64,000 bases of DNA from Closterium sp. NIES-65 (Eukaryota; Streptophyta; Zygnematophyceae; Desmidiales; Closteriaceae): assembly GCA_948144175.1 (NCBI GenBank), contig CANXME010000511.1, positions 1,307,001-1,371,000 of the forward strand. The letters are read 5' to 3'. Shown here piece by piece: positions 22,901-59,863 of this stretch. Under the pieces are notes generated by a model. That model made no database searches. It saw only the letters and a list, made by a program, of their open reading frames with translations, and had not been told where the DNA came from. Position 1 is the stretch's first letter. Each line of letters opens with the position of its first letter. Both the position numbers and the translations under genes were made by a program.

Positions 22901-25900
22901 AACAGGAAGTTCGGGAGTGGCAAATTCATGACCATGCATGCATATTGTAGTGGTTGGAAGGTGTGAGCACATAGGTTAGAGATGTTGATACTACAGTGTT
23001 CAACTGGTCTGAGGGCTGATGCATGCAGGCTCTGAAACTTGGGCGAAAAGAGCAAAAAGGACACAGCGATTACGGGTGGAGACAGCTTAGTGCACTGAAC
23101 AGTTCTCATACAGATGCAACAAACTCCTCTCCCTGGAAATCCACAATTGCGACACCAGCATATCTCACACTCCTTACAGGTACTCCAATGAAACGAGGCT
23201 TGAAATTCCTGCCGGAATCGACCCTTGGAGCTCACAACGGGACATGACTCTGGGGACGGGTTTGTATAAAACAGTAGAGAAGGCGATGATAATGCCCTGG
23301 GCACGGAGTAATCCGGCAAGGGGAGTGCTTTCTGTTAATGATTAAAAGGAGCTAATAAAGGCGTATAAATGGAGCACATACTACTTTGAAGTTGGATGAA
23401 GGCGAGAGTACAAGGGCAAACAAAAAGAGAGGGCATTCTTATGGGAGAGGGAATCAAACGCTTTTGAGTCGACTCAAAAGCATTCTTATGGGAGAGGGAA
23501 TCAAACGTGCACAGGAGAAAGCTTTTGAGTCGACTCAAAAGGGAGAGGAAATCAAACGTGCACAGGAGTTGACTTTTGAGTCGACTCAAAAGGGAGAGGA
23601 AATCAAACGCATCACAAAAATGTGTGTGTCTAGAAAACATTCGACCGTTTGGTTTGTTACCAAGGGTTTAAAAAACGTTTGACAATCTTTCAGAAATCAT
23701 CTACATATCATTCGGATATCATTTTGTACTACCCAAATGTTTTGTTGATGTTTTAGTAATGGATTACCAATGTTTTGATGGTTGATGTGTCAAATGTTGT
23801 TTGTTGAGACAATACATAAGGCTTCATGAATAGGAGTATCACAATTATACGATGTTATAGTCTAGAAAAACAGTCGCAATTTTGAAGGCATTACCAGATG
23901 AACCTATTGAGGAGCTTCACATCAGGGTCTTTGCAGCATGGGACGACATGCACGATGCTAAGAATGCAATCTGCATCTACAACTGCATAGTTGTAAGTGC
24001 CCTTCGTGGGCAGCAGTCGCTTGCAGCCTGTGTAGCGGCAGACGCGCCGATCCTCCGTGTAGTACTCTATGTAGGCGGCCTTTTTTGCCACGCCATCTTT
24101 CACGTAATGGAACAGCATCAAGCAACGGCCGTACCAGTTGGCCCCTTTGCCAGATGGGTTTATGGCCACATCTGAAAAGTGCCTCTCAGCAGGGCTTGCT
24201 TTGACAAACTGCCCCTTCTCGGTCCACTCCATTCTGTCGTGCGGTGGGATTGCCATGGCTGTGTGCACCTGCGAGTAAACAAACATGGAACGCAACAAAA
24301 CAATGGAAGGGTCGTGTTAGATTTCTCAAGGATGAGTTGCTAAGTGGTGCGTTGATACAACGGGTTTCCATGGCTGGGTTTTCCCATTACAACTGGTCTA
24401 AGACTGCTTGCGTTTAACAGGATGGTAGTGGCAGGTCTGCATTGCAGGGGGCAATCTTATGATTCTCACACTGAGCACTTGTTCGCGGATTCCCTCCATG
24501 GTCAGCCGCTTCTTCAGGGCGCCCATCGCTTCATCTCCGTGAAGGAGGACGTAGCTCCTGAATACATCATCGAGGATGTTCCCCACGGTCATCTTCTTGT
24601 GTGTCTTTGTCATCACCCGGCGCCCAAGCGTGCAAGCCTGGGTAGGAAGGTGATGGATGCATGGTTTACATGGCGGCATAACAAGGCAGCAATTGAAGTG
24701 CAATGGGGACAACAGGAGGAGGGAGCAGTGATTAGGGACGAGTGGGTGGGAATAGGGGGGCAGTACGAGAGGTCAGAGGGGGCAGCAACAGTAGGCATGT
24801 GAATAGGGGGACAAGTGCCAAGCGGGGGGGGGGGCTCAACGAATTACAAAGATGGGCTGGATGGTTTAGCCAGTGGTGGAGCAAGGGTGGGAAGTTCGAG
24901 TGGGCGAGGGGTATAGCAGGAGGGTTTAGGTTCATGGGTGGACAAGCGGGGGATCTTTTGAGAGCAGAACGGGATGTCAAGGGGGGCAGCACGAGGACAC
25001 TTGGTGGGTGGACAAGTGGGGGAGCATGTGGGGGCAGAATGGGATGTCAAGAGGGGCAGCAAGAAGATGGTTGGTCGGTGGACAAGTGGGGAAGCATGTA
25101 GGCGACAGAACGGGAAGCAAAGAGGGGCAGCAGGAGGAAGGTCGGTGGGTGGACAAGTGGGGAAGCATGTGGGGGCAGAACGGGATGTCAAGAGGGGCAG
25201 CAAGACGAAGGTTGGTGGGTGGACTAATGGGGAAGCATCTGGGGGCATTTAAGAGATGACAAGAGGGGGCAACGGGTTAAACATCCATGTGAGGCCCCGT
25301 GGGGGAGCATGGGAGTGCAGAACGGGATGTCATAAGTTTATGGTAGTCGGGTAAGGGCCAGCGGGGCTCAAGAGGATAGGCAAGGTTTAGCTTTAAAACA
25401 GGAGGTCATGGAGGGTAGTCGGCGGTTGGAGCAAGGGGGGACAAGTGGTGGATTGAAACGGCTTTGGGTTGTATTCAGTCTCACCTCCTTCATGGCTGTC
25501 TCGTAGGTTTTGTCCCCGCCGGCAGCCCGAGACAGCTGTCGAACAACAGCTTGCTCGACATGCTTCTTCACAATCCTATCTTCCACACCCTTCCAGTTGG
25601 TGCCCCGAGATGGGCGCTTTACTGTTGTCTTGTGGGATTGCTCGTACCGGTTCGACGAGTACTCCTGTGGCAATCCGCGTGCGCGGATCGTCGGTGGCAG
25701 GTGCGATACAAGATGTACCTTCACAATAAACCACTTCGACTTCTGGTTGTCGAACGCTAGAACAAGCGCATCGACCATCCTGTATGGAATGTGTTATGGA
25801 GGATTGGAAGATACGGGGTTGGCGCAGTGGGGTGGTATGGAGGGGTTTACTGTGCCCCATACCCTCTCACATCCCCTCCTCCCCTCTCTCATGCCTTTCC

Positions 25901-27786
25901 GCCTTTTTTCATCCCCTCCCCCCTCCTCTCATATCCTCCCCCCCCCCCTCTCTCATCCCCTCCTTCCTTCTAATTGCCCCTCCATTCCCTCACTCTGTGC
26001 CCCTCCTCTTCTCTCTATGCCCCTCGTTGCCTCTCTCAGCCCCTCGTTGCCTCTCTCAGCCCCTCGATGCCTCTCTCAGCCCCTCGTTCCCTCTCTCAGC
26101 CCCTCATTCCCTCTCTCAGCCCCTCGTTCCCTCTCTCAGCCCCTCGTTCCCTCTCTCAGCCCCTCGTTCCCTCTCTCAGCCCCTCGTTCCCTCTCTCAGC
26201 CCCTCGTTCCCTCTCTCAGCCCCTCGTTCCCTATCTCAGCCCCTCGTTCCCTATCTCAGCCCCTCGTTCCCTCTCTCAGCCCCTCGTTCCCTCGTTCCCT
26301 CTCTCAGCCCCTCGTTCCCTCTCTCAGCCCCTCGTTCCCTCTCTCAGCCCCTCGTACCCTCTCTCAGCCCCTCGTTCCCTATCTCAGCCCCTCGTTCCCT
26401 CTCTCAGCCCCTCGTTCCCTCTCTCAGCCCCTCGTTCCCTCTCTCAGCCCCTTGTTCCCTCTCTCAGCCCCTCGTTCCCTCTCTCAGCCCCTCTATCCCT
26501 CTCTCATCCATCCTTCCCTATCTCTGCCCCCCCTTTCCCCTCTTTCGGCCCCTCGTTCCCTCACTCTGCCCTCTTTCCCTCTCTTTTCCATTCTTTCTCT
26601 CTCTTTGCCCTTCTTTCACAAACTTTGCCCGCTGTCCCCGTTTCTCAGCCCCCATTTCCCACACACGGCCCCTTAGTCCCTCTTTCGGCCCCTCGATCCT
26701 CGCTCTGTCCCTCTTTCCCTCTGCGCAAGGAACGCACATCCATTCACACTAGACTTACTCGCAGGAGACCTCCTCCATGCGCTCGAGAGATTCATCAGTG
26801 TGATACTCAGCCCGGATGAACTCCTTGTACCAGTCCGACATGAGCGTGATGGCATGTCGAATATCGGCGCGCTTGGGGAGGTCAATAATGAGGGGCAGCA
26901 CTTGCATCATGGCACGGTGCTCCGACGCCGAGAAGCAGGCCGTCGTGGTGAAGTACGCCCACGCGGATGGGAGCCTCAGCAAAGATGCAGGGGTCACTGC
27001 CTTGATGATCTTGTAGCGTCTGCACGTACGGGATGCAATCAGGGTATCGGTTATGGGGGTGTGGGGCAGGGGGGGAAGGGGGAGGGAGGGGGGCAGGCGG
27101 GCGAGCAAGGGACGGGTGAAGGGGGGGGGGGAGTAGTTAGGTGCATCCAATCGCACCCTCATCTCCCCACTTTCTCTCTCACTGCCTCACTTTCCCCCCC
27201 TCTGCCCCTCTCTCCCATACTCTATGCCCCACCCTTCCTCTCTCTGACCCTCGTTCCCACTCTCTGCCACATGATCACCTCGCTCCGCCCCTCGTTCCCT
27301 TTCTCTGCCCCAATTTGCCTCACTCTTACCCACTTGCCCTCTCTCTGCCCCAATCTCCCTTTCTCTATTCCCAAATTTCCCCCTTCATTCCTCTCCTGCC
27401 CTCCCTATGCCCCGAGTTCACTTCTCTATGCCCCGCATTCACCTCTCTCTGACCCTCCTTCCCTCGTTATGACCCTCCTTCACTCCGTCGCTATCCCTCT
27501 CTCTACCGCGCATTCCTTCTTGGCTTCGTCTCTTACCCTCCCTCTACCCTGCATTCCTCCTTCGCGGAGTCTGTTTCCCTCTCTATGCCCACTTCCCTAT
27601 GCCCCGCTCTCACCTCTCTCCGCCCCTCCTTCCCTCTCTCCGCCCCTCCTTCGGTCTCTCAGCCCCAAATTCCTTCTCTCTTCCCCACTGTCCCTTTCTC
27701 TGCCCCACTTTCCCTCTCTTTGCCCCACATGCACCTTCCTCTGACACTCATTCCCTCATCACGCCCCACCCTCTCTCTCTGCCTCG

Positions 27787-27842
<56 letters not shown>

Positions 27843-30800
27843 CCTCCTGCATGCTCTCCGCCCGGCATTCCACCACGCTACCCCTCCATCGCCCCGCCTT
27901 CTCTCACGCCCCGCCTTCTCTCACGCCCCGCCTTCTCTCACGCCCCGCCGTCTCTCACGCCCCGCCTTCTCTCACGCCCCGCCTTCTCTCACGCCCCGCC
28001 TTCTCTCACGCCCCGCCTTCTCTCACGCCCCGCCTTCTGTCACGCCCCGCCTTCTCTCACGCCCCGCCTTCGGTCACGCCCCGCCTTCGGTCACGCCCCG
28101 CCTTCTCTCACGCCCCGCCTTCTCTCACGCCCCGCCTTCTCTCACGCCCCGCCTTCTCTCACTCCGCCCCGAAGTCACTTCTATTTGCCCATCCTTCCAT
28201 CCATCTGCCCCTCCTACCCTCTCTCTGCCCCAGCATACCTCTCGCTGCCCCACTACCCCTCTCTCTGCCCCACTCTCCCCCTCTATTTGCCCCTCATTCC
28301 CTCTTCACGCCCTTCCTTCTCTCACTCTGCCCCGAAGTCACTACACTCTGCCCCTCCTGCCTTCTCTTTGCCCCGCAAGTACTTATATCTGCCCCTCCAT
28401 CCATCCCTCTGCCCATCTTTCCCTCTGGCTGCCCATCTTTCCATATATATGCCCCGAATTCCCTCTCTCTGCCCCTCTCCCGCTCTCTCTTGGTGCCATA
28501 TTCCCTCTCGTTGCCCCTCTTTCCCTCTCTCTGCCTCTGGTTCCCCCTCGATGCTCCTCTCTCTTGCCCTTATGACCCGCGCCCCACAGTGGTGTAAGGG
28601 AAACTTACTCGAGAAGTATCTTCCGTTCTGAGGGTTTCAATTTCTTCACGAGGCACCTCATTGCATGAAGCCAGAGCCCTGCCTCGATAATGTGCATGAT
28701 GTCGGGTGTTTGGGCGAGATACGTGTTGCCCCACGAGGTTTTGGAGAACTCCCAATCCCACAGCAAGGACTGGCAGCAAAGGGGAGGGGAACGAGAAAAA
28801 GGGGGCCTAAAGGATCAGGGTGGGAAAGGGGGCCAGGAATGACTCACGTGGACAGACTCACCCTTGGACAGCAAGGGTGGTACACGGCGAGGTGTCCACC
28901 TCCAGCCTAAGAGGGAGGGGGACGGGAGTTTAGTTGGAGGGGGTGTTTGTGAGCTCGCGATGCACAAAGGAGAAGTGGGCAGGGGAGAAACTGATCTTAC
29001 AACCAATTGCATGGGAAGGTGAACGGGGGTGGGACCATGGTACCACGGAACCATACAAACGTACGCACACAATCAATAGCGGTACCTTAACGAAGTGGGT
29101 CGAATACTTCTTCTTCAGACGGTTCAGTTCCTTCTTGGTTTCCGCTCCCTCCATTTTCTTGTACACAGCTTTTTGATCTCGGACGGTACGTGGAACGATC
29201 TCGTCATCCACGTCGCGAAGATTATCTCTCGTGACCATGCAGATGGAGCAAGGTCGGAAGGAGCTACATGACATGGTGCACGAAACCTTGTTGGACTCTG
29301 GATGGTCGTTCACGACTGAGTACAGCAGCGGGATGGCCACGTACTCAACCCCGTTGCTGTCCTCCACCTTCAAGCCCCCGCTGCGCGACCAAACATGAAA
29401 TCATGCCATGTTGGTGGCTTTGGGGTGAGGAAATCAGGACTGAGAGCACGAAAGCAATGTTTAAAGGGGTCGGGCGTAACGGGACCAGAATGTGCACTCC
29501 AAATAACCACTGATGCAATACATGGCAAGGAGACTCTACGAAGCTATGACATCTTTTCACGTTTGTAGAAGAACTTTAAGGGCAGCGTACCCGCGGAGCT
29601 TGGAAAGAGACTTCAGAGGCTGTAGCATGTATTCCGCCGCCAGTTGGAACACCCTAATCTTCTCCTCTGGCTTCAGGTCGGAGGGGATGTTAGGGAAGAG
29701 CCCCAACAGCTCGGTGCCGCCTTCCAACCAACGCGCCCATTCCGGTGTGTTACCGAATGACAACACGAAGGGGTCTGCTGATTGCCTACCATTGTAGGAC
29801 AGGTTGGTTTGATCCGAATAGAGGATGATCGCCAACACGATTGCACCGACCTTACGGACGCGGTCCTGTAAAGGGCGGGAGAGATCAGAGGGCTAAACAC
29901 GGAGATCAGAGAGCAAAGGGCGAAGGTCAGAGAGCAAATGACGGAGCTAAGAGGGATAAGGGCGAGGGGTCGGAGTGAAACGGGAGGATTTCAGCGTGCA
30001 AACCGCGGAGATCACAGAGGAAAGGGCGGGAGATAGAGGGCAAATTGCGGGAGATCAGACAGAAATGGGCGGAGACCTGAAAGCGCAGGGGGGAGATCAA
30101 CGAGCAAAGTGCGGAGATCAGAGGGGAAAGGGCGGAGATCATGGGGCAAAGGGCGGGAGACTAGAGGGCAAAGGGCTGAGATGAGCGAGCAAAGTGCTGG
30201 AGATCGGAGAGAGAAAAAGGGCGGTGATCAGAGAGAGGAAAGAGGAGGAGGATCAGAGAGAGGAAGGGCTTGAGATCAGAGAGAGGAAAGGGCGGGAGAT
30301 CATAGGGCAAAGGGCGGATCAGCGAGCAACGGCGTAGATCAGAGAGCAAACGGCGGAGATGAGCGAGCAAGGGGCGGAGAGTCCGTGAGCAAACGGCGGA
30401 GATCAGCGAGCAAAGTGCGGAGAAAGGAGAGAGGAAAGGGCGGAGATCAGCGAGCAAACCGTGTAGATCAGAGAGCAAATGGCGGGGATGAGCGATCACA
30501 TGGCGGAGATGAGCGATCAAACGGCGGATCTAAGAGAGAAAAGGGCGATAGGTCTGAGTGAAACGGGCGGATTCCAGTGAGCAAACGGCGGAGATCAGAG
30601 TAAAAACCCGGCGATCGGGCGGAGGTCTGAGAGCAAGGGGGGGAGGACCGAGATCAAGAGCGAGGGGCGACAGAGGTCAATGACTTCGAGCTTTAGATGC
30701 TCACTAACCCACGCTTTAAGCATCCAGTCAGTATTGCCAGGCGTGCTGTAGCGTCTTTCACCCTCCACCTTCCACTCCTTCGGCTCGATGATGAATCCGC

Positions 30801-33800
30801 GTACTGCGGACATCTTCTTGAACATCACCTGTGCCAACTGCAGATCGGAAAGAGCATTGTTTCATTGGTTCGTAAGGTAGATGCCATTCAATGAGTTGTT
30901 GACTAAGATACGCGACTGGTGAGGGGTGCGGCAGAATTAACTTGGGCGAGTAACACAAACAGAGAGAACAGCGTGAGACACACCACGTTAATATTGCGAA
31001 ATCTGAAGGTGAGGAATCCCACTTCATGATCCACAGGGATCTCAGCCACTTGCCAAGAATGCTCCGGCCCCAACTCGAAGCTGCTTTCGTACTTCTCAAG
31101 GTCCCTGTAAGTCGTCCAGCCTTCTAACTGTTCAACACTAATGCCCGGGATCCTGAAGATATCTATAAGGTCAGTTATGGCCCCATTCGTAAGCCCGTGT
31201 TTCCGTGCCAGAATGCATACTTCAGCCTAAAGATCAACGGGCTCTTCATCGTCATCCGATACCACCTCAAGGGTACTTTCGCAAGGCGCCTCAGCAGACT
31301 GTCCAGGTTTTTCTGAGATGGGAACTACTCTGTAAGCGGTTTCCGTCAATGGTAACTGCAGATTGGGTCGGGGAAGCGGTGCAGGCAGCAAAACGGGGAC
31401 GGAATCCGAAGCGGCTCCAAGCTTTTTATGCTTCTGGCTCGACTGTTTTAAACGCAACTTTCTCTTCTGCGTCAGCTTGCACTTATCGCCATTGGATTGG
31501 TGGCTTCGAAGGGTCTGATAGCAGAAGAAGACATCGCCACAGTCGCACTTTTGACCCTTCATTTTTCAAACGTGATGTTGTGAGTTACGTAGGGAGCTTG
31601 TGCCTTTCATGAGATATAGCACCAACGTATTACTGTCGAGATGGTGTCAACATTGAAATCTACGTCCAGCAGCATGTCATGGATGGAGGGAATCTGTCCC
31701 AACAAACATACCCGGGCTGGCTCTGGAAATGAAAAGGGTTCACAAGAAATATGTTACTTAGCGTGAGAACCTACTCCACCCCGCATTGCAAAGGCGAATG
31801 AGCAGCTCCACGGTATGAAAATTTGATGTTTAGCGGATCACGAAGGTAACCGTGTGGTGTGCGAAGACAGTCACCGTGGGGTTAATAGTGTTCCGCAACT
31901 CCCTAGACACCTAAAAATATCTGGACACTACAGCATACTGGATGTCGAGTGTGCAGGGTTGACGTGGTGGGTGGCGAAACACCAAACCCGGAAGTGATTC
32001 TGACAACCCTAAAATTCCAACCAATCACGTATGATTACGTCATGTGTTGCTCAAGCCCAGGCAGGGTGATGAACCCTAATCGACCAAACTGCATTTCGTC
32101 TCAAAAATCCGACCGTTGAAAAGAGTCTCATCGTGCTGGATCTACGTGTTTCTCGAGCTAATTCCGGAAACATTGGAGCGCACAATTCTTGGACCACAGC
32201 TGACTGGGCATTCCAGACCAGCGAGAATCAGAATCAGTCACTAGTGAAGGGAGGCAATCAAGCGTTAGCAACCATCCGCGTTCATGTCAGTCCACGTCAT
32301 TTGGAATCTGACGGACCCAAAGGCAGCACCGAAACGTGGGTGTCGAAACTGTGTTGCGGAACCACATCATTGGGCGATGCCTCTTCAACCCCCCATACAC
32401 CAGAGAGCTCACACAGTTCCAGGGATAGCACCAGCAGCGAGAACACACTCCGTTGCATGACGATCTGAATCTCCAGTACCGCCAGCTCGTAGGTGATTCC
32501 ATTCCATGGCTTCACGAGATGCAGCTTGTGATTTTCCCTTTCACCCGATTTCAATGCCTTTCCCATTTGGCGGAGCGTGGCTAGACGTCAGTGAGGAACA
32601 CGCTAATAAGCTTAAACCCGGAGAATGGGTGACCGGAATCGTCATCGACTGGCTGGGAGTGTGAGTTATGAGTTTAATTTCGTGAGAAGCCAAAGTAGGA
32701 CTACTTTGTAGGTCTAAGATGCTTATAATGCGTTATGTTTCAACAACCACAGGATGCTTCAATATGAGCACGGTCGCGACAACAAGATGTGGCTGTACAG
32801 TGGATCCTACTTCTGGAACTACGCTGGAAGGGACATTGCGAAGCGGGGTAACGCCCATCTTTTTGGGCTGGGGATATTCGACTACAACTATATTCTCGTC
32901 CCGATCAACAGCGAGTGGGTGTCAATCGCTTGAATTCCAGTCATAATTTCGATCAACGACTATTTCTGACAGATACTCGCTCATCGCTTGTTGTAGGTAT
33001 CATTGGAGCTTGGTCGTCATTGAGATAATCCCCAAACCAGATGAGAACATACCCATGACCTGCGTTCTCTGGCATGCGGATTCGTACGGATCCCACGAAT
33101 CCGTGGACGCGCCTTTGCGAAGGTACTGTCAGAGGACGTCATGGGTGTGCATTCTATCGTAGAAGCCCGATCTCTAATCTTCCATTTGTGCTCCGTCATT
33201 CAGGTACTTAAGAAACGAGGTTATGAGGGTCTCAACTTGGATCCTTGATTCGGACGCAGATGCTTGGGCTGCGAGCATCCCTCTGCGCGTCGTCAAGGTG
33301 ACCTCTGATCCCGTTGTCTTAAATGCCAGCTCTCAATCAACGACCCACCTTTTGACAGCCACGTGCATGTGCGAATGTGTGTTGACAGATTCCGTCGCAG
33401 ACTAATGAGAATGACTGCGGTGTGTTCACGATGCGCGTGATGCACACACTTGTTGAAAACAAGTTCCATAACCTGGGTGCGTGTAAGCTTGTTGGTACAC
33501 CGAGTAAGTGGCGCCGTCAGTACCTTCGCGACCTGAAGAAGTGGTCTGTCTTCTTCCTCGAAAATGCGTTGAACCAACCTCGAAACCAGGAGGAGGAGGT
33601 GGATGAGGAGGATGAGAAGGTGCAGGCGGATGTAGTGGAGTAGGTGGAGGAGGAGTAGGAGGAAGAGGTGGAGGAGGAGGAAGAGGAGGCATGTGAAGCA
33701 CGTGGGGCATGAATGGCGTGTGAGGTGTTTGAGGCATGTGATGCATCGAGCCGGCATGTGAGGCATACGAGGTATACGAGGCATGAGAGGCAGAGCTCAT

Positions 33801-36800
33801 GTGAGGAACATGATGCACGACGGGACATGTGAGGCACGTGAGGCATGCGAGGCACGTGAGGCATGAGTGGCATGTGGGGCATTGTGCTGACATGTGATGC
33901 ATGTGAGGCATACGAGGCATGGGAGGCGGAGCTCAGGTGACTCCAGTGAGGCACGTGTGGCATGTGAGGCACGTGATAAATCTGAGGCACGTGAGGCATG
34001 TGAGGCACGTGAGGCATGAGTGGCATGTGTGGCATCGGGTGAGGTATCGTGGTGGCATGTATTCATGTGAGGCGTGTGAGGCACGTGAGGCATGTGAGGC
34101 ATGTGTGGCACTTGCGGCACGTGATGTCGGTATGAGAGGCGCACCTTGTTATTGATGATGACCCAGCAGTCAACTCTCTTGTTAAGCCTCGCTACCTCCT
34201 CCTTGTATACACCTTGGTTTCTTAGGCAGCCTGTCAGTGGGATGAACTTGTCGATAAAGTATGGATAAACGGGCAGGAGATATGGCAGATGAATAATGTC
34301 CGGCGAATGTGGTCTTGTGGACCAACTGGATAGAGAACAAGGAGGTGTAGAGGACGGAGAGGTGCTGAGAACGGAGAGGTGCAGAGAAACGAGAGGTGTA
34401 GAGGACGGAGAGGTGCAGAGAACGGAGAGGTGCAGAGAACGGAGAGGTGCAGAGAATGGAGAGGTGCAAAGAACGGAGAGGTGCAGCGGACGGAGAGGTG
34501 CAGAGGACGGAGGAGAGGGGCAGAGAACGGAGAGGTGCAGGGAACGGAGAGGTGCAGGGAAGGGAGAGGTTTAGCGAATGGAGAGGTGCAGTGGACTGGG
34601 TGAGGTAGTGAACAAAGAGTTGCAGAGGTTGTAGAGGTGCAGATTACGGAGAGGTGCACATAATGGAAAGTGGACTTGGTCATTGCACTCAGCCATAGTA
34701 CATTGACCTTGTCCCAGTGACTAGCTTTGCAAAAGGCAACTGGCTTGCATGTGCTGTTTTGCCAGGGAGATCAACAACTGTCTCAGCTGCATGTAACCAC
34801 GTGTCTTCATGCTATTCTTCAGTAATGAAAATCACACGTCTATACATGAAGATAATCACAACCCATAGTAAACTGTAACGGTGAATTTGACAGGATTGCT
34901 TGGCTGTTCAAAATTTAAGCTACGGTGCATAGAGCAGAGATTTTAATCGATTAACGACATCACTGTGTGCATCCTACTTATTTGTGTTGGTTATTTGTTA
35001 ATGTTACGTGTGCAATTGAGTGAACGAACGAGAATTGCACTATCGAAGCAAGAGTACAATGAGCGAAGGCATGAGCGAAGGATTATATAGCGAAACAATA
35101 GTGGTAACGGTACTGGACTGTGGTTGTCGCGCGACGAGCCTGGGACTGAGGTTGGGAAAGTGTCGAAGCGTAGGCCCGGAGCGCGGGTTACCAGCCGAGC
35201 CGTGAGGTCGGGATGCGATGTGCGAAAAGGGCGGGATGATGAATGATGCGATGGTCGCGAGTGGTAACGGTGCTGACTGAGGTGCTACAGTGATGTACGC
35301 GTTGAGCAGGGACGCGAAGTAAGGAAAAGGGAATTTCCTTACAGTTAAAAACCAGTGTGTCCCCATGGAATATAAAGGCAGGACTGGACTCTATGAACCA
35401 ATTGAGCGGATTTCCATGACGATTATACACCCAATTTCGAACAGGGTAGTACATGCCAATACTGTAGCATAGCGAGACTAGGCGTTTATACGCGCTGGAA
35501 ATTCGGATGCGCCTCACACCCCACGCCTACGACACCTGCGCTCATCACACCACTGAGCCGTTGCGACCGTGTCGCAATCGCTGTGCGGCGACTCACGTCG
35601 CCGCGATTTCAGGTGTTCCCTTGCACAATCACGCTGTGTCGACCTGTTGTACGTGGCTGCACGACGTTGTGCGACCACGAGCCCACCTTCCCTCTCTCGT
35701 GTAGTTCGCTGAGTAGTCGCAGCTGCTCATCGGGCATGGTACGTGACTATTGTGATAATATACGTGCGGCACCTGTCGCGTTGCCTGTAATTCAGCAACA
35801 CGAGGGAGTCGGGCAGTTCAAACTCTCACTCGTTGCCGCTGGTTTATTTATCATAGGCCGTCCCTTTCGCACTTAGCGGCAAAACAATCAGCAGCGCGCC
35901 GTAGGTATCCAACGGACCATACAGTCAGTGGCGCGAACACGAGTGCAGTTTCTGGAAACCTGGCCAAAGCGTCATTACCTGTGACCGTGACCGTCTAGCT
36001 TCTTCCCATCTACAGTAACAGCCCATGTACCTGTGCTCTGGAGAGGCGGTGGATCTCGAAGGACCATCGTGCTTCTCTAAACCGCATGTTCAAACCCTCA
36101 TCAGCCTGGTGCTGCTCATACGTGGTGGTTGGATCACGTACACCTGCTCCACCACCGTGTCTGGTACTCGGACCTCAGCAACCAACTGACATTTAATGCT
36201 AGTATCCGCTGGTGAGTCAAGTCACTATCTAATTCCTAACTTCCGTAACACGCCCGTCATGGGTGTGAACCTAGATCCAACAGTTCAAGCTCAAACCCTT
36301 AATGCGCAAGTAGGGGTTGTTGAGTTGCCTAGTTCTACCAAATCGCCAGATGAGAAGAGATATATGGAGGTAGTCACACCAGAGAAAACGGCCCAAGTCG
36401 TCAACGAGTATCGTAGGAGACATCCGTCCAAAGCTTGCAACGACAGCAAGTCAGGGGGCGATTCTTCATCTGAAAACGACTCCAGCCGTGACGGCGATGT
36501 GGAGTCATACGCAAACAAGGCTATTTCATCGCCCCCGAAACGGAGGGAACGGCGTATCAAGAAGTTGGAAGAATGCAACCCCAAAATAGGCCAGAAAGGT
36601 ACGTGTTCACCGGATCCCACCAGCAATTATATGGCTCCTTGCGTAATTTCTGGGATGCCTATAGGTTGTTACCGCGTATCCCGCTTACGTCACATGTGAC
36701 TACTCATTTTTCTCTTTTTATGCTTTTCACAGCCGGGTCAGAAGAGAAGGGTCACTGCCGTCCGAGAGCAAAGCGCAGGAAGGGGAGGAGTGCGGTGGAG

Positions 36801-39800
36801 AGGGGCAGTTCTTTCCATCGTCAGGATAAGGTGGCATTGGCCGGTGGCGACGACGTGCTACAGTCTGGGCCTGCCAAAGACGGGGAGGGTAAGGGACGAG
36901 GGGCTGTAGGCGCTAAGGGCGACAGTGATGGGGAGCGCAAGGGACGAGGGGCTGTAGGCGCTAAGGGCGACAGTGATGGGGAGCGCAAGGGACGAGGGGC
37001 TGTAGGCGCTAAGGGCGACAGTGATGGGGAGCGTAAGGGACGAGGGGCTGTAGGCGCTAAGGGCGACAGTGATGGGGAGCGTAAGGGACGAGGGGCTGTA
37101 GGCGCTAAGGGCGACAGTGATGGGGAGCGTAAGGGACGAGGGGCTGTAGGCGCTAAGGGCGACAGTGATGGGGAGCGTAAGGGACGAGGGGCTGTAGGCG
37201 CTAAGGGCGACAGTGATGGGGAGCGTAAGGGACGAGGGGCTGTAAGCACTAAGGGCGACAGTGATGGGGAGCGTAAGGGACGAGGGGCTGTAAGCACTAA
37301 GGGCGACAGTGATAGGGAGCGTAAGGGACGAGGGGCTGTAAGCACTAAGGGCGACAGTGATGGGGAGCGTAAGGGACGAGGGGCTGAAGTCACGTACAAG
37401 CGGCGCAAGGTGGTTGACACGGGCGGTCACGACAGAAAAATGAGGAAGGCTCGCCAGGGACGGAAACGGTACGCTTCACCCAGATCGTCGTCCGGTTCCG
37501 AGGAGGGATCCAGCGACGGGGAATCTGGTAGTTCATCTGGCAGCGAATATGGGGACGAGGAGGAGGAGGAGGAGGAGGAGGAGGAGAGTGAGGACCAAGA
37601 TCTGGAGCCGGAAAGCGAGGAGGCGGATGAGGTGCGTCCCAAGAGAAAGGGGCGTGATCGGAAGGCCAAGAAGGGCATTCCTAAGAGGAACCGTGACAAG
37701 GGTCGGGACAAGGGCCGTAAGGGGCGCGACAGTCGTGGGAAATCGCATGGCAACAACGGTCGCCGGCGTGTGGTTTCCCAGGTTGTCCGTGTGCGCCCCA
37801 AAGTGAAGCCCGAGCCTGAATTCTATGCGGAGATGGGAGTGAAAGCAACTGCTGCTCCTACTGGATATCTTGATCGTAAAGACCAGACCCGAAGGAGGCG
37901 TGACGATCGCGAGGACCCTTATGCTGCTCTCAGAGGGCCATCACTAAATGCTGGGAAAGGAGCAGACCCGTTGCCTACAGGGTCATGGCGTCATAACAAG
38001 GAGGGAAAAGACCCACTTGCGAAGCGTCTCGAGACACGGGATTCACCGGATCTTGATAAAGACGACTTTAAGCCCAAACGGTACGCTGACCCAACGGCCG
38101 CAGCAGCAAACGACGGTGTGGCAGGTGGGATGTGGGCAAACACATTGGGTGATTGTGGCGGAGTTATGGCTGGCTCTCCGTACGATGAACGTGACGAAAG
38201 GGGCGACGACTACACCTGGAAAAGGGATCCACACACGAACGAGGGGAGGGGTGAGAGCATGTGCACGCCCGGTGCATCTGGTCGTCTCAATCCGGCTCGC
38301 CCCAAGACGGTGGAGCAGCTCACGCGAGAGCTTGAGCTAGCAAACAGCGAACTAGCAACCCTCAAGGCAAAACCAGCTTGCAATGGCGTCAAAAACCGCG
38401 GACCCCCTTCCCAAGTTCCTCCTCTGGCACCTTTGGAGAGCGACCCATCATCTGGGGGCCTCAGTCCCGAGGTAGCTGATGAGAGCACCCCGACAGAGGG
38501 CCAGCCCATTCGGCGCAGGCATGGAATGCCCACTCTCGAGAAACTGAGGGTGAGTGTGAGGGGCACTCTGCGTTGCTTTCATGCTCATTCGTAACCCCCT
38601 GCTAGCATCTTGCTATTCATGCTCATGTTAACCCCCCTTGCTAGCCCCACATTGTCCAGCATGTCGTTCCAAACCCCCTCTGCCTGCACTACGTCTGTTC
38701 TTGCTCATTCGTAACCCCCTTGCCAGCCCCACATTGTCATGGTTGTTAATTATAACCCCCTCTGCCTGCCCCACATTTGATATGCTTGCCCCTCGCCACT
38801 GATTTCTTCTTGCCCTACCATCCCGTCCATTGTAGCTTCATTTTGTTGAGGCGCGGGACCGGATGTGCATGGAAGCGCCGGACCATGCGGTTGACTGGTA
38901 CCCATCATTTGACCAGCGACTACAGGTTCTGTATGGCGTCATCAGTGAGACCCACATCATTTCTTACATGCAGCTGAAAGAGACAATGAAGGATCAGAAC
39001 GTCGTTGCCGTCTTTAAACGTGTGTGGACAGCATGGAAGAATGAACGGGGATTTCAAGTCAAGCGCGGTGTGCTCGAGAAGTTTGGAGTGAAGGTGGAGG
39101 GACTGCGTGCATCGCAGATCAAGCTGAGCACGAAGAGGAAGTGGAGGTTGTGGCGAAAATACAAACCGAGTGAGTCTTGACAATCAGCTATCCCGCTGCA
39201 ACTACGTTGGTTTCGTCGCGTTGCTCATTCCCTTTGTCTTTTCAGATAGCACTTTTATTTCCTAAACCTGGCCCCATCATGTCATGGTCACAAACCCGTC
39301 TGCCCTGCATTCCCCACCGCAGGTTCCTCGCCCAAACCCCTCTGCCCTGCCTGCCCCACCTCAGGATCGTAAACCCAAACTCTTCTGCCCTGCCTGCCCC
39401 ACCTCAGGATCCTCACCCAAACCCCTCTGCCCTGCCTGCCCCACCTCAGGATCCTCACTCAAACCCCTCTGCCCTGCCTGCCCCACCTCAGGATCCTAAA
39501 CCCAAACCCCTCTGCCCTGCCTGCCCCACCTCAGGATCCTCACCCAAACCCCTCTGCCCTGCCTGCCCCACCTCAGGATCCTCACCCAAACCCCTCTGCC
39601 CTGCCTGCCCCACCTCAGGATCCTAAACCCCAACCCCTCTGCCCTGCCTGCCCCACCTCAGGATCCTCACTCAAACCCCTCTGCCCTGCCTGCCCCACCT
39701 CAGGATCCTCACTCAAACCCCTCTGCCCTGCCTGCCCCACCTCAGGATCCTCACCCAAACCCCTCTGCCCTGCCTGCCCCACCTCAGGATCCTAAACCCA

Positions 39801-42800
39801 AACCCCTCTGCCCTGCCTGCCCCACCTCAGGATCCTAAACCCAAACCCCTCTGCCCTGCCTGCCCCACCTCAGGATCCTCACCCACTCTGCCCTGCCTGC
39901 CCCACCTCAGGACCCTAAACCCAAACCCCTCTGCCCTGCCTGCCCCACCTCAGGATCCTCACCCAAACCCCTCTGTCCTGCCTGCCCCACTACTTGGACC
40001 CTAACCCCCAGCCCCTCTGCCCTGCCTGCCCCACCTCAGGATCCTAAACCCAAACCCCTCTGCCCTGCCTGCCCCACCTCAGGATCCTCACCCAAACCCC
40101 TCTGCCCTGCCTGCCCCACCTCAGGATCCTAAACCCAAACCCCTCTGCCCTGCCTGCCCCACCTCAGGATCCTCACCCAAACCCCTCTGCCCTGCCTGCC
40201 CCACCTCAGGACCCTAAACCCAAACCCCTCTGCCCTGCCTGCCCCACCTCAGGATCCTCACCCAAACCCCTCTGCCCTGCCTGCCCCACCTCAGGATCCT
40301 AAACACAAACCCCTCTGCCCTGCCTGCCCCACCTCAGGATCCTAAACCCAAACCCCTCTGCCCTGCCTGCCCCACCTCAGGATCCTCACCCAAACCCATC
40401 TGCCCTGCCTGCCCCACCTCAGGATCCTAAACCCAAACCCCTCTGCCCTGCCTGCCCCACCTCAGGATCCTCACCCAAACCCCTCTGCCCTGCCTGCCCC
40501 ACCTCAGGACCCTAAACCCAAACCCCTCTGCCCTGCCTGCCCCACCTCAGGATCCTCACCCAAACCCCTCTGCCCTGCCTGCCCCACCTCAGGACCCTAA
40601 ACCCAAACCCCTCTGCCCTGCCTGCCCCACCTCAGGATCCTCACCCAAACCCCTCTGCCCTGCCTGCCCCACCTCAGGACCCTAAACCCAAACCCCTCTG
40701 CCCTGCCTGCCCCACCTCAGGATCCTCACCCAAACCCCTCTGCCCTGCCTGCCCCACCTCAGGTTCCTCGCCCAAACCCCTCTGCCCTGCCTGCCCCACC
40801 TCAGGATCCTCACCCAAACCCCTCTGCCCTGCCTGCCCCACCTCAGGATCCTAAACCCAAACCCCTCTGCCCTGCCTGCCCCACCTCAGGATCCTCACCC
40901 AAACCCCTCTGCCCTGCCTGCCCCACCTCAGGATCCTCACCCAAACCCCTCTGCCCTGCCTGCCCCACCTCAGGATCCTCACCCAAACCCCTCTGCCCTG
41001 CCTGCCCCACCTCAGGATCCTCACCCAAACCCCTCTTCCCTGCCTGCCCCACCTCAGGATCCTAAACCCAAACCCCTCTGCCCTGCCTGCCCCACCTCAG
41101 GATCCTCACCCAAACCCCTCTGCCCTGCCTGCCCCACCTCAGGATCCTAAACCCGAACCCCTCTGCCCTGCCTGCCCCACCCCAGGATCCTCACCCAAAC
41201 CCCTCTGCCCGGCCTGCCCCTTCTTACGATGCCCAAACATACCTCCAAACACTGCCTGCCCCACTACTTGATGATAAAACATACCCCGTGCTTCCCCACA
41301 TGGTTGTGCCTCCTTGTAGGAGGGAATGAGCGGGTCAGCTCGTGGGGGAACGACAGATCCGGGCTCCCTTTTGCCAACGCCCGGTTTGTGGATGCGGTGA
41401 AGGCATCATTTCGGGATTACGCTGTTGGGCGCAGGCTGGCCCTAAAGACGTACCACATAGCCTGGTCACTCATGGTGGTGAGACTGGTTTTGTAAATCAC
41501 ATGTACTTGCCCTAATGCTCAATCTTTTCTATTGCACGTGAACGACTTGGGACCCTTGGGGGCTAACACCGGTAACATGCAACTCTGCCTTGCTGCTGGT
41601 CCCTGTAATCCAAACCCGTTTCAGATTGATCAAGGCTTGGCGCGCTTCAAGGAGACCGACATGAACCTGCCGAACTCCCACAGGAAAAACACTAGATGGA
41701 TGAGGAGTTTGACTCGGGGGGTGCGGAGGATTGTAAGGGATCACTTTACACGCCACACCCCCGTGTACAACGCAGAGTTGCAGGGCTTCAAGTGGGGCAC
41801 GCGTGGGCTCTATGTACATGAGTCCGGGTTTCAGGCGTTCCGGGGGACGGCTCAGGCTGATAACGAGGAGGAGGAGGAGGAGGAGGAGGAGGAGGAGGAG
41901 GAGGAGCAAGAGGATTTCAGTGAGAAGGAGGAGGAGGAGGAGGAGGAGCAAGAGGAGGAGGAGCAAGAGGAGGAAGAGGAGGAAGAGGAGGAGGAGGATG
42001 AGGATGAGGAGGATGAGGAGGAGGATGAAGAGGAGGAAGAGGAAGAGGAGGATGATGAGCAGGGGGGGAAGGAGTTGAGAGGGAGCAGAAGGCACAAGAG
42101 AGGCAAAAACATGGGTGGCAGGAGGGGAAAGTGATGTGCAGGCAGACAAGGGGGCAAGCAGGACGGGTGGCAGTGGAGGAAGTTGGAGAGGCATCGGGTG
42201 AGGCAGGAGGGTATCGGTTAACGGGGAGAGCAGGGGCGTTTAACGGGTATGGATAAAGGAAAGGCATCAGGATAGGCAACAAGGGTAAGAAGCCGAGAGT
42301 CAACAAGGAAAGGCAGCAGGGGAGGCAACATAGAAAGGCACCACGGGAGGCAACAGGGAGAGGGAGCAGGGAAGGCAACATAGAATGACAGCAGGGGAGG
42401 CAACAGAGAAAGGCACCACGGGAGGCAACAGGGAGAGGGAGCAGGGAAGGCAACATAGAATGACAGCAGGGGAGGCAACAGAGAGGCAGAATGGGAGGCA
42501 ACATAGAATGGCAGCAGGGGAGGCAACAAAGGGAGGCAGCAGGGGAGGCAACATTAAATAGCAGCAGGGTAGGCAACAGAGAGAGGGAGTAGGGGAGGCA
42601 ACATAGAATGGCAGCAGGCGAGACAACAGAGAGAGGCAGCATGGGAGGCAACATAGAATGGCAGCAGGGGAGGCAACAAAGGGGCAGGGGAGGCAACAAA
42701 GGGAGGCGGTAGGGGAGGCAACATTGAACAGCAGCAGGGTAGGCAACAGAGAGAGGCAGCATGGGAGGCAACTAGAATGGCAGCAGGGGAGACAACAAAG

Positions 42801-45800
42801 GGAGGCAGCTTGGGAGGCAACATTGAATGGCAGCAGGGGGGAGGCAACATCCCGTGGCAGTAGGGGAGGAGTGCATATTTAATATGCGACCGTTTTGCAG
42901 GTTGCCTGGGTGGCGGAGGAGCAGTGGAGGCAGCATGTGAGGCAGTAGTGGAGGAGCAGTGGAGGCAGCATGAGTAGCATCAGGGGGGGGAGGCCGGGAG
43001 GTAAGAGGGGAGTTCCAGGAGAGGCCCAATGTGGAGCAGCAGGAGCAGGCATGAGAGGAGACCGCATAGGGGGCAGCAGCGTGGAGACAGCAAGGGGACA
43101 GGAGTATAAGCAAGAGAGGAGACAGGAAGTGTGTAGCCGTGCAGGTTAGCATTAGATGGAGCAGTATCTGTAGTCAAGAACTCTCTAGGCCAAGAGCTGG
43201 AGAGATGGGGCGGGGCTGCATCCGATGATGGCTTGCGAAGTAGGTAGGAGGATGGTGCAGATTAATCCACCCTAGCAGGACTACGCAACGCGTGTTTAGG
43301 CAGCTGTTTTGTGTGCCAAGCCAACTCTGTAATGAGATTAATAATCATTGAGCAATGCATTCATGATGTGCGTGTACACCTAAGAATGGCTAATAGACCT
43401 TCCATCAAACAACGAGAATCACTTGATAAAGGTTCATATACAATCTTCTTGAACTTTGGTCCTAAGCTCTGCTAAAGAGTATATGAGTGGAAAGTAATCT
43501 CCCTGAACTCTCCGAACGAAGTCTTATACATCTCCGAAGAAACTCAGACAGACCCTAATCTGAAGGTAATACAAACATGTCATCACCTGCAAAGCATTCG
43601 ACAAAGCATTCGAAAAAATGTTTATACTTTCACCGAAAAGCGTTTTGGCCCCTACGTTTTAAAAGCATTTGAAAATACTTCACCACAACTTTTTACAATA
43701 GGTTTCTGGTCATATGATTTTTGTGATGCGTGCACAGGAGTTGACTTTTGAGTCGACTCAAAAGGGAGAGGGAATCAAACGTGCACAGGAGTTGACTTTT
43801 GAGCTTTTGAGGGTCCTACACCTGGAGGAGCCCTAACCCCACCTGACGTGTGCTTTTGAGTCGACTCAAAAGAGAGGGCATTCTTACGGGAGAGGGAATC
43901 AAACGTGCACAGGAGAAAAGTATTGGCGCCATCACAACGTGGTTGCATACCAATGACCTTTCGTTGGATGCAACAACCAACATTTATATGTGTTTGTCGC
44001 GTTGCATTTCTGTTGTTGTCGTTTACTGAATTGGCCATTTACCTCCCTCTAGCTGTATAGCTATAGGCTTCTTTCATGAGCTACCTAACTCCGCTGGGAA
44101 CCTACTAATGCACGAAAGATTGGGCACAAAAAAACGAGCTCATCATTCTCCTGTGAGGTTCTTACAGTGTCCTCAGTGAAGTGAGAGAAGAGATGCTGTC
44201 AGGAATAGACCCATTAAGAGTTGTATCCGACAAACATCTATGTGGGGTGGGTGGGTGGGTGGGTTGAAAGAAGGGAGGAGTAAAGGAAACTGGATGGAGA
44301 CCGACTGTAACGTCTGTGGGGCTTACACGGGTTGAGTGCCTCCGCTGTGCGTCAGATACAACCCTCGTTCTGACCCAGTGGGTAGCGAGGCGGTTTTCCA
44401 ACTGACACGACAACAAGGAGTGATTGGCGCAAATCCTGCTGCAGGCAGCAGGCATCAATCAAAAGCAAGTCTGCAGACACGAGCAGACTGTGTGAGGTCC
44501 ACCACAAAAAAAAAATGCACACTTACATCGAGGTAATCATGCCTGAAGCGTCATAGGTGAACCCCGTAATCGCGTCGCAGGTAGCACCCATGGGCCAGAC
44601 TGGGAACGTCTTTCCCCATGCCTTCTGGCAATCCTCGAGAAACACCGCTGACAGTTGGGGGATAGGAGATGAGAAGAGAACGAGGAACAAGGTTATGGAC
44701 GTACATGCAACCTGCGCTATGTCGGGGGGGATCAGCTTGCAAGGAACGATGCTGCTACACGTGCCTGCTATGGATACCGAGGAACGCTGCTGCTACCCGT
44801 GCCTGCTATGGATACCGAGGAACGCTGCTGCTACCCGTGCCTGCTATGGATACCGAGGAACGCTGCTGCTACCCGTGCCTGCTATGGATACCGAGGAACG
44901 CTGCTGCTACCCGTGCCTGCTATGGATACCGAGGAACGCTGCTGCTACCCGTGCCTGCTATGGATACCGAGGAACGCTGCTGCTACCCGTGCCTGCTATG
45001 GATACCGAGGAACGCTGCTCATCCCAAAAATGGGTTGGGGTGTGCAGTATGTTTGGGAAAGTTAACTTTCTGTGCGGTTGGATGGGAGTATGTTTCTAGT
45101 AGGTTCAGTTTTTAGACTAGTAACTCTCACGTAGATTCTGCCAACTTTCGAACTAGGATGGGATGAGTTCGAAGTTACATCGCGGCATGTTTTTGAGTTG
45201 GCCAATCCGAACCTCCCTAGCCTATCAGCCTTGTTTCGAAACTGTGCACCACAGCATGGTTTGAAAAAATGTATAGTTGTTTCTACTCTGTTTCATAATA
45301 ATACACAAAATAGTGTAATTGTGACAACTTTTGAGTTTTTAACGGATGATTAGGGTTCAATTAATCTCATCAAATATAATTATATAAATCATTCGACAAA
45401 TTAGATTATAGTAATTTCTACTGTACATTTAATATATTTGGAGATACTATCAGCTTATGTTTAGTTAAGTAATTATTTTTAACTTGATATTTACATTTAC
45501 AATTTGTGAACACTTAACATATTGATGAAAGATAACGATCTTGTAGTGCAATATATAGCTACATGCAGAGTGCGTAAGATGGAATGCGCGTCAACAATTT
45601 GAAATCGTACATCACGTCGCGATTCGTGCAACTTTGTGCAGGCCGCGTCCAGGGACGTCGCTAGTAAAAAAAGTTGTCTTAGAATCAGACAGAAGTTCCG
45701 GCCTTAGTCTGACCATCAGACGAATTTGTTAGCGCTGTCTGACCTTTCAGATAAAAGTGGTTTGAAATGTCCGTCGATTCAGACAATGTTTAAATACTAG

Positions 45801-48800
45801 TCTGTAGCTAACATTAACGTTGGAAGTTATTTAACCTATTGAGTCTCGCTATCAGATTCACTAGAACTAACAGAGCAAGACTCGTCATCATCCTCTGATG
45901 CTACGACTTCCTGACGCTTCTTTCTCCTCCACGCGGGGATGAGTGCCTCCTCGGCGGCTACTTTTTCTCTCTCCCTCGCCGCTGCCGCCTCTGCTTCACG
46001 CGCAGCTCTGGAGGATGCGGCTGCTGCTGCTTTCGATGCTGCGGCTGCTGCTGCTTGAGCCGCCTCTGTTGCACGCTTTGCTCGCTTCACAGAGTGCCCC
46101 GCCTGTGCCATCACGACCTCCTTAGCTGGCCGGCGCTTCTTGCTCCCGTGCCACACCGACATGATCCCCTACGGCTCCAGCTCGTAATTAAGCAACGCCA
46201 TTGTCATCAGCTCCCCGAGAGTTGCATCGCAAAGGTTGCCGCGAATCCAACTCTTGATAACGTTCTGCCGGCTAAACCCCCGCTCGCACTGAACTTTGCT
46301 GAGCGGGAGCACGACCACTGCCATCCACAGCTTGACGAGGTTCGGGTAGGCTGCTGTCCAGTCGTCGCTCGCAATCATGTGCTTCATGCTATCGTGGAAC
46401 GAGAGGTCCTCATGGTGGGTAGTGATGATGCTGGTGAAACTCCACAACTCCTTCTTAGCCATGCCCCAGTGGATGCCTGTTGATCCAAATGATAGGGAGG
46501 AGGCAGACACAAAGGAGACATATTAGACGTGGTTTAATGTAGTTTAGTGTCAACATTACCGCGTGACACTTCTTTGACTCACCCGGAAGTGTATCGGGAT
46601 CACCCGGCTTTTTCTTGAACAGATCTCTCAGAGACTCAAGCCACTGAGGAAACCTGCTTTCGCGCTTCGCCCGCGAGCTAGGATAAGCACTCTGACGGAA
46701 CAGCCGCGCGCCTTTCAGGGCCGAAAGGTCTTGCATCCGCTCGGTGAGGTTGGAGACGACTTCTGTGGAAAAGTCTGTGGCGAGTCTGATGCACGCCTGC
46801 AGGTCCGATCCGATGGTCTGGCCCTTGAGGTGCTTCTCGTGCAGCACATACTTATGGGTGGTGGGCGTTCCGTCCGCATCAACACCCGTCCACTTCCACT
46901 TCGCGCTTATTTACGTTAGAATGAGCTTGCAGGAACTTTGCCAGTCTGCCGCTGTGACAAATGAACTAGCAGAAATGGGGATACAAATAACAAACCCTAC
47001 AAGGGTTGTACTCGCTATAGAGCACCCCACTACAGGCTAGAACATAAGAATAATATTCTGACACGCTGTTGTCTCCGAAAGTCTCCATGTAGTCGACGTA
47101 ACGGCCGTTGAGGGTGTTCACAGCGTGCAGAAGAGCCGGTTGTACAACCGTCACATCAACCTGTTTTTAGGGAGGGACAAATAACAACAATGGTTTAGGC
47201 TAAAAAATCATAGGATCAACCTATCTTAAGCGTGGGACGAATGACATCACAAGAACTGTTCAGCACTCCCTACCTGACGACGCTGAAACTTCAAGTTGAG
47301 GATGTTCAGCTCCTTCAACACATCCGCAAGGAAGTATAGAAGAAACCGTCCGACTCTTTGACTCAATTCCAACCGTCTGACGCTTTGCATTTGTTCCCGA
47401 TATTGTGCGTACCTTGCTACGGTGAGGAGTGCTTAGTAATATCGAATATTACTATTCGTAACAATATCCACTTGCATTTACATATCAAGACTCACAAAAT
47501 CTGATATTCATAATGCATACAATTTGTGTCGTTGTGGAACGCCTCAATTACGTACTTGAGACATCAATCTGTATGTCGCACAAAAGCTCATATGAAGCTC
47601 ATGGTGAGAGCCTCACAGCACTAAACATAGGTGTCTTACAAGTAAAGGGACGCACTCAACTTAAATTAGTCACTCATGACATAATCCATACATGAATACA
47701 GAACTTCAGCATTGCTTCATTGCCTATGTACACTCTGAACTTTTATAGTGTCGTAGAGCTTCTCATATTTGTGAACTACTCAAGAGCTAATGCTCCAATG
47801 TTCAGATGTTTGAAGAGGGGTTATAACACTAAATGGAAAATATTACCTATACAATTACTAGACATATTTATTATGGTATATATTCATGCGAGCACTTGAG
47901 TAGTATCGCACAAAGAAACAGGCCATCAAAGAATGCTCATCAAAACTTCAGAACTTACAGAACTTGATTTGCTCATCTGACTCCTAATACTGCTCGAATG
48001 CTCGAGAATTAAATACTTTTAGGCTATTAATTTCCTCAAATATCTATATAAAATCTGATAGATAACTACATAGTAGAATATTTGGTTGATAATATAGTCA
48101 GAACGATTTCAAACATATACATACTTGTATAATATAGTGATAGCATTTTTGAAACACGAATTCTGAATATTGCGGTACAGAAACAGGTATAAGTGTTATC
48201 AATTGTGATATTTGCGTGGTTACGATAACTTCACATCCAAAATAGGCGTGTTATGCAATATGTCAAACAATGTGTTTCGACTGTAACGGAAATTTCACAA
48301 CTCTCAGAGGTGGTCGAGATTCATGAACCTGCTTCGCTACGCAGCTGCCATACCTGTCGAGCTGGCGGCTAACTGGGCAGCAAAGAAGCGCGTCAGCCAA
48401 TCTGACGATTGCAACTTCCAGAACCTGCAGCCGCACAGCTGCCCTTACCTGTCGAGCTGGCGGAAAACTGGGCAGCAAGCAGCGCTTCAGCCAATCTGAC
48501 GATTGCAGCTTCCGGCACCCAATCGAATTCACCCACGAAGCCTAATTCTGAGCAGTTTCCCCGCCTTGACTGTCGAGTCACCTTACCTTCTTCGAACCGC
48601 AGACCTTCGCCTCCTCCAGAGGGATATTCGCTGGCATGTGTGGTTGCGAGCAGTTTTTGGATAATTCCAGTTTGTGTTGCTTTTGTGACCGTTCAGTTCC
48701 ATTCCCACATTGTTTTGTTGTGTATCTGCATCAAATCTCCCCCAACTGACTGTATTTCTCGGTCGTTTTTGCTGTTATGTTGTTTTTTTCTGCCCCGCCC

Positions 48801-55604: not shown

Positions 55605-55731
55605 TGAGAAGAAACGAGAATGGATGAACTATGAAAGAGTTGGGTACAAGTACTAACCCTAATTGGGTTGTACCCCTTATGGGCTACCCCACTACAGCCT
55701 ACACAAATGTATAAGCTATAATGTTCCGACA
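55605..55731 (-). repeat. 3' LTR of copia element 2 (minus strand)
   Basis: On the minus strand it starts TGTCGGAACATTATA and ends about TTCTTCTCA, preceded by a purine-rich ctatgggggtg tract. It resembles the 132-bp LTR at 59,732-59,863. It cuts copia element 1 in its reverse transcriptase. Confidence 0.8.
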
Positions 55732-59731: not shown

Positions 59732-59863
59732 TGTCAAACATTATATATGTTGTGTTAGTTTAGGCTACAGTGGGTTAGCCTATAGGGGGTACACAATTCT
59801 AGGGTTAGGTACTTGTACTCATTTCACTGCTAGTTCATTCATTCCTGTCTCGTACTTCTGACA
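59732..59863 (+). repeat. 5' LTR of copia element 3
   Basis: Starts TGTCAAACATTATAT and ends TACTTCTGACA, 132 bp, immediately followed by the primer binding site. The flanking five bases on the left are CCCAC; the matching copy should appear after its 3' LTR outside the window. Confidence 0.85.

Follow-up and report, generated by a model that had tools for sequence, protein, structure and literature searches.

A recently multiplied 20-kb DNA transposon of the alga Closterium sp. NIES-65 carries a Plavaka-like transposase, a putative Ulp1 protease, and a third gene

Fungal PlavakaB transposons encode a Plavaka transposase, have CATCA..TGATG termini, and duplicate 2 or 3 bp of the target (PMC12730594; this and the other publications named here are cited from the portions available to us). 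Some fungal transposons, Plavaka elements included, also contain an accessory TET/JBP dioxygenase gene that is said to counter silencing (PMC12730594). In plants, the KIU/Kaonashi and VANDAL MULEs carry a Ulp1 domain, which in some Vandals lies within the anti-silencing gene VANC, and a review calls the exact role of Ulp1 in MULEs unknown (PMC13317346). Here we describe an element found in a stretch of 64,000 nucleotides of the Closterium sp. NIES-65 genome (contig CANXME010000511.1, positions 1,307,001 to 1,371,000; this whole stretch is called the window). Positions 23610-43728 of the window are very probably one member of a PlavakaB-type family of cut-and-paste DNA transposons that carry three genes and have multiplied recently. 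A preliminary description of the window had proposed a DNA transposon of about 20 kb with a Plavaka-like transposase, a divergent Ulp1, and a large third gene in a plant-lineage genome, and that outline was borne out.

By its termini, target duplication, and transposase domain, the element fits PlavakaB. It begins with CATCACAAAAAT and ends with ATTTTTGTGATG, that is, with the CATCA..TGATG termini of PlavakaB (CMCT clade) and not the TGT..ACA of PlavakaA, and the target duplication is 2 bp, as seen at 10 of 11 distinct sites. With fungal PlavakaB it has in common the transposase type, the termini, the duplication, and, for some of the fungal elements, the presence of an accessory gene (PMC12730594), but it resides in a streptophyte alga, is 20 kb long with spliced genes, and has Ulp1 and an uncharacterized protein as its accessories. 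The KIU and VANDAL MULEs are likewise DNA transposons with a Ulp1 accessory (PMC13317346), but they belong to the Mutator superfamily and their Ulp1 is part of VANC, whereas the Closterium Ulp1 is a separate gene. CryptonF and CryptonS are also mobile elements with a C48/Ulp1 gene, but they are tyrosine recombinase elements that move by another mechanism (PMC3212892). Auxenochlorella, a green alga, also has Plavaka-type cut-and-paste transposons, its EnSpm-Plavaka elements, and the available part of their description mentions no Ulp1 or third gene (PMC12633428). The Plavaka giant repeats of Amoebidium, an animal-related protist, form clusters of up to 50 kb with intron-poor genes and many tyrosine recombinases (PMC11244446). 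Since Plavaka transposases have motifs in common with EnSpm (PMC12730594), a Ulp1-bearing CACTA/EnSpm element, a kind named in the preliminary description, would be the nearest parallel for the cargo. The open-licence literature, which leaves aside subscription papers and Repbase, yielded no paper joining Plavaka and Ulp1 and none joining Closterium and Plavaka. The new part of this finding is the cargo and its persistence.

The 874-Mb assembly of Closterium sp. NIES-65 was searched with the protease protein; since 150 of the 656 candidates went on to scoring, the copy counts are lower bounds. The genome contained at least 294 exon-level protease matches, and protease exon 5 was present at 97 to 99% identity in at least 30 places, the window counted among them. 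Over positions 31886-35089 (3.2 kb, gaps excluded), 21 of the 29 other copies showed 99.69% identity or more to the window, and the remaining 8 showed 87.2 to 98.9%. The expected ends were then fetched for a sample of 16 other copies. Left ends were located in 15 of the 16 and right ends in 12 of the 15 that were tried (the contig of the 16th was too short), each with the terminal sequence of the window. For the ten copies taken first, resemblance to the window ceased at the located ends, give or take chance bases, except in C164. The flanks of C164 are identical to those of the window (300 bases on the left and 350 on the right), and C164 is therefore a duplicate of the window insertion. Both ends were known for 11 copies besides the window; the flanking 2 bp agreed in 11 of these 12 copies (CG, CG, CG, AG, AC, AT, TG, AT, GT, GA, and CC), which occupy 11 distinct sites. 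The lengths of the 11 other two-ended copies ranged from 19,357 to 21,316 bp. The comparison of genomic copies proposed in the preliminary description, run on this sample of 19.4- to 21.3-kb copies, also concerned gene content: in all 10 copies tested, pieces of transposase exon 3 and of third-gene exon 3 lay next to the protease. These 10 were drawn from the 11 two-ended copies and are thus biased towards complete copies. With its fixed ends, its 2-bp duplications, and its recent multiplication, this is shown to be a mobile element. The 20-kb jumping gene of this unicellular alga, a close relative of land plants, is real and has recently multiplied.

The insertion site in the window gave a second view of the ends. 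When the two flanks were joined minus one CG, a continuous tandem repeat resulted; the joined stretch was 95% identical to the left array over 120 bp and 98.7% identical to the right array over 75 bp, with both alignments crossing the join. Because the rejoined flanks restore the repeat, the array, palindromes included, is host sequence that was split by the insertion. The inner edges of the two array halves are inverse copies of the 14-mer ATTTTTGTGATGCG, as had been reported, and these copies contain the true ends, CG followed by CATCACAAAAAT on the left and ATTTTTGTGATG followed by CG on the right. The borders first given, 23400..43925, were too wide, taking in flanking host repeat with its palindromes. 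The preliminary description had named ends at a place other than the palindrome clusters as one of two findings that would count against it, and this is what the copies show. At C708, a tandem repeat was likewise split by the insertion and is restored by rejoining the flanks, and at the other insertion sites the flanks are unrelated to those of the window. Tandem repeats were the target in 3 of 10 independent insertions, compared with 8.0% when 1,000 positions were drawn at random from the window flanks; a preference for tandem repeats was not adopted, ten independent sites being too few to claim one.

The exon models of all three genes are predictions, set by eye with the help of open frames, and they agree with the preliminary description in giving three spliced genes. 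The transposase has 10 exons and lies on the minus strand; Ulp1 and the third gene have 5 exons each and lie on the plus strand. The transposase matched the Plavaka transposase domain (PF18759, 7.3e-19), scoring 68.6 bits where the cut-off is 26.3. At an E value of 0.1 or better, Plavaka was its only Pfam match, with no match of the Mutator type seen in KIU/VANDAL MULEs. All of its introns are GT-AG, and it spans 862 codons if the terminal stop and a single in-frame TAG (codon 112) are included, where 846 had been reported. Putative DDE residues, assigned by eye, are D254, D353, and E621 or E628; C372-x2-C375 and H604-x3-H608, zinc-motif residues also picked by eye, lie between D353 and E621/E628 and correspond to the C(2)C and H(3-4)H motifs in the available part of the published description. 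Six Closterium relatives of the transposase, with 61 to 77% identity over 16 to 96% of the query, were present among the best 7,991 candidates scored, and all 10 protein relatives found among the candidates scored came from Closterium strains.

In the other copies, the transposase was read for most of exon 1 and exon 3 only. Among the copies compared, the in-frame TAG is confined to the window copy; all 12 other copies tested, C164 included, have a sense codon at that place. As C164 has the sense codon, the TAG arose in the window copy after the C164 duplication. Given an in-frame stop that all 12 other copies lack, the window copy is probably defective unless it is served by another copy. Treating the TAG as part of a 39-nt intron was considered and rejected as needless, with a sense codon there in 12 of 12 other copies.

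The protease gene encodes 247 residues, as first described, in 5 exons, and a query differing from it by one wrongly entered junction residue matched PF02902 (Peptidase_C48; 6.2e-11). The His-Asp-Gln-Cys residues of such proteases were found at H92, D118, Q167, and C173 in an alignment with SENP2. Solved sequences matched at an E value of 0.01 or better numbered 13, and every one was SENP1, SENP2, SENP5, SENP7, or Ulp2, all of which are SUMO proteases; the best match was SENP2 (1.1e-6). Exons 1 to 4 were free of stops in 28 of 30 copies (one was gapped and one had a stop), and exon 5 was free of stops in 29 of 30. An alternative is that the Ulp1 protein processes the element's own proteins and not SUMO. 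The Ulp1 protease clan includes viral cysteine proteases that process viral proteins, and the third protein of the element is large, repetitive, and acidic-tailed. Set against this is the uniform match to SUMO proteases among the 13 solved sequences (no cleavage site was sought), and we regard processing of the element's own proteins as unlikely.

The predicted third protein is basic, with 16-aa repeats, a conserved C-terminal region, and an acidic tail. Three relatives, all from Closterium, were found among the best 7,997 candidates scored, one of them the Closterium sp. NIES-65 protein P0008, which matched at 97% identity over 53% of the query. A tandem array of units of about 42 bp occupies an intron of the third gene at 39300-41270, and similar arrays occur in other introns. 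Element length varies by about 2 kb among copies, and there are introns with tandem arrays.

Table 1. Predicted features of the element and its flanks (positions within the window)
Feature	Position	Strand	Length or exons	Basis
Whole transposon	23610..43728	.	20,119 bp	PlavakaB-like termini; ends seen in other copies, flank rejoining, copy lengths
Left terminal inverted repeat CATCACAAAAAT (element start)	23610..23621	+		Window sequence and ends of other copies
Right terminal inverted repeat ATTTTTGTGATG (element end)	43717..43728	+		Window sequence and ends of other copies
Left target-site duplication CG	23608..23609	.		Window sequence; 2-bp rule also in other copies
Right target-site duplication CG	43729..43730	.		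Window sequence; other copies
Left half of host tandem array with 20-bp palindromes (flank, outside element)	23428..23609 (start approximate)	.		
Right half of host tandem array (flank, outside element)	43729..43921 (end approximate)	.		
Plavaka transposase gene	23891..31562	-	10 exons: 31562-30984, 30837-30709, 29865-29591, 29380-29086, 28906-28862, 28769-28609, 27019-26759, 25779-25485, 24637-24470, 24268-23891	PF18759
Ulp1 / C48 cysteine (SUMO-type) protease gene	32554..33643	+	5 exons: 32554-32660, 32753-32914, 32997-33122, 33204-33297, 33389-33643	PF02902
Third gene	36196..42134	+	5 exons: 36196-36598, 36733-38549, 38836-39169, 41320-41477, 41625-42134; 1,073 aa	

Judging from sequence likeness, relatives of the gene set also sit in more ancient, diverged transposons of this genome. 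Six diverged loci were read at length, three obtained from the protease protein search (C1807, C1883, and C1965) and three from a Pfam protease search (C637, C442, and C1731). The transposase and Ulp1 stand head-to-head at four of the six. At C1807 (L091) and C1883 (L092), the Plavaka transposase and the Ulp1 gene are both diverged and are arranged as in the window, and at C442 a Plavaka match (best 6.8e-12) lies about 6 kb from Ulp1, divergently placed; at these three loci the expected place of the third gene was only partly read. C637 is the one locus of the six with all three genes in the order and on the strands of the window. Its transposase is much older: identity is 25 to 42%, and the aligned part, which may include some intron, contains stops. 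Its Ulp1 has 34% identity, and its third gene has 25% identity over 154 aa, a match of 43.9 bits compared with at most 24.6 bits in 100 shuffles. The best CATCA pair at C637 (902783/918594) was rejected as a terminal inverted repeat, as it has no matching duplication and likeness continues outside the pair. The H, D, Q, and C residues were kept in the proteases of L090 (C1965), L091, and L092; for the six remaining loci tested, alignment was possible for Q and C only. A further Ulp1 family, more distant, is found with equal score in three places (L004, L005, and L006), the C442 locus among them. The 3-kb loci L001, L002, and L007 contained Ulp1 only, and no transposase was found at any of L001-L008.

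These loci bear on whether the element is nested or composite, that is, a Plavaka element whose Ulp1 and third gene arrived by separate insertions or by chance and have no role in transposition. The genes are large and intron-rich and contain tandem repeats, and two diverged loci have protease and third-gene sequence by itself: C1965 has Ulp1 and third-gene exons with no transposase within the 9.9 kb read, and C1731 has Ulp1 and a third-gene piece with no transposase within the 16.9 kb read. However, pieces of all three genes were present in 10 of 10 two-ended copies, transposase and Ulp1 were together at four diverged loci, with the third gene too at C637, and the ratio of nonsynonymous to synonymous substitution (dN/dS) was well below 1 for each gene. 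The transposase gave 0.19 (L091) and 0.17 (L092), Ulp1 gave 0.14 (L091), 0.09 (L092), and 0.15 (L090), and the third gene gave 0.30 (L090 alone, repeats included), the Ulp1 and third-gene ratios being rough at dS values of 1.2 to 1.8. A composite origin is therefore improbable.

The two loci without a transposase, the single comparison behind the third-gene ratio, and the roughness of the ratios nevertheless count against a three-gene transposon, as do several other findings. The right ends of C1984:98307, C1788:373689, and C2112 and the left end of C1916 were absent from the stretches fetched, and the C863 copy has the flanks GC/CT, with no matching duplication. Some copies are damaged: the window transposase carries its in-frame stop, a one-base gap and a stop interrupt the part of the C1788 transposase that was seen, and the L040 copy (C84:673219) has a protease stop at residue 57 and another in exon 5. 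Pfam gave no match in the conserved part of the third protein and, in its charged parts, only matches below the cut-off. Modelling the structures of P0010, a relative of the third protein, and P0002, a relative of the transposase, gave nothing usable (mean predicted local distance difference test scores, pLDDT, of 44.6 and 33.5). Finally, the SUMO specificity of the protease is inferred from likeness to SENP2 only.

Near-identical copies could also come from segmental duplication or assembly redundancy instead of transposition. The samples are haploid, yet more than half of the NIES-65 gene groups are duplicated (PMC10407611). C164 duplicates the window locus, and the copies L042, L044, L045, and L076 (two on C1984 and one each on C863 and C2112) have a common left flank over the 40 to 45 bases compared, so that their common insertion was probably multiplied by segmental duplication. 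As a general account this is very improbable, because the 11 distinct two-ended sites have different flanks and 10 of them have matching 2-bp duplications; duplication accounts for some copies only. Least tenable, to the point that we give it practically no credence, is the placement of the termini in the palindrome clusters at 23.4 and 43.9 kb: the same 20-bp palindromes, CTTTTGAGTCGACTCAAAAG, and spacers do occur on both sides as described (at 23461, 23522, and 23573 on the left and at 43745 and 43853 on the right), but sequence shared with copies at other sites ends inside the clusters, at 23610 and 43728, with unrelated flanks beyond, the joined flanks form one continuous repeat, and C164, the duplicate of the window locus, is the sole palindrome-flanked copy of the 16 with at least one flank seen. 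A further CTTTTGAGTCGACTCAAAAG palindrome lies at 12873-12892 in a different repeat context.

The preliminary description had placed the element in an intron of a receptor kinase gene. That position is supported, though less firmly than the gene models. A kinase exon at 3220-3621 matched PF00069 (3.2e-9), and exons resembling leucine-rich repeats (LRRs), for which Pfam gave no match, were recognized by eye on either side of the insertion and on the same strand (frames 44165-44458 and 23177-23341). Since LRR-like exons flank the insertion and a kinase part is present, the element most likely lies in an intron of a receptor-like kinase gene. Elsewhere in the window, positions 46172-46522 on the minus strand gave a weak match to the hAT dimerization domain (PF05699, 0.0077, below the cut-off), perhaps an old hAT remnant, and the long frames at 54093-55607 and 55944-63522 resemble Copia retrotransposon polyproteins by eye. 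Within the element, the motif CRTTYGA occurs three times in each outer 300 bp (23610-23909 and 43429-43728), 5 times in the inner 19.5 kb, and 15 times in about 43 kb of flanks. The motif was picked post hoc and is a possible binding site, to be taken as a lead only.

By analogy with its family, the DDE transposase would excise the element and insert it with a 2-bp stagger. The roles that we infer for the other two proteins are less sure. The Ulp1 enzyme may remove SUMO from element-bound proteins, whether the transposase, the third protein, or host silencers, and this removal might ease silencing or regulate transposition. The third protein might act as a partner that binds DNA or chromatin, perhaps where the ends of the element are rich in AT. 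Tentatively, and with less than even confidence, we suggest that zygnematophyte algae, so far Closterium only, host an old Plavaka branch with a fixed three-gene module, in which a divergently transcribed transposase/SUMO protease pair and a chromatin- or DNA-binding protein would form a built-in anti-silencing system. Such a system would be the SUMO-pathway counterpart of TET/JBP in fungal Plavaka elements and of VANC/KIU in MULEs, and it could explain the continued mobility of 20-kb elements.

Ulp1-like proteases, which the available portions of the literature place in Mutator elements and Cryptons, are found here in a Plavaka element with many near-identical copies, and the head-to-head transposase/protease pair is kept at diverged loci. 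Should elements of this kind depend on the SUMO pathway, transposons in general may target SUMO-dependent silencing, an idea that could be tested in Closterium, which is related to land plants and can be grown in culture.

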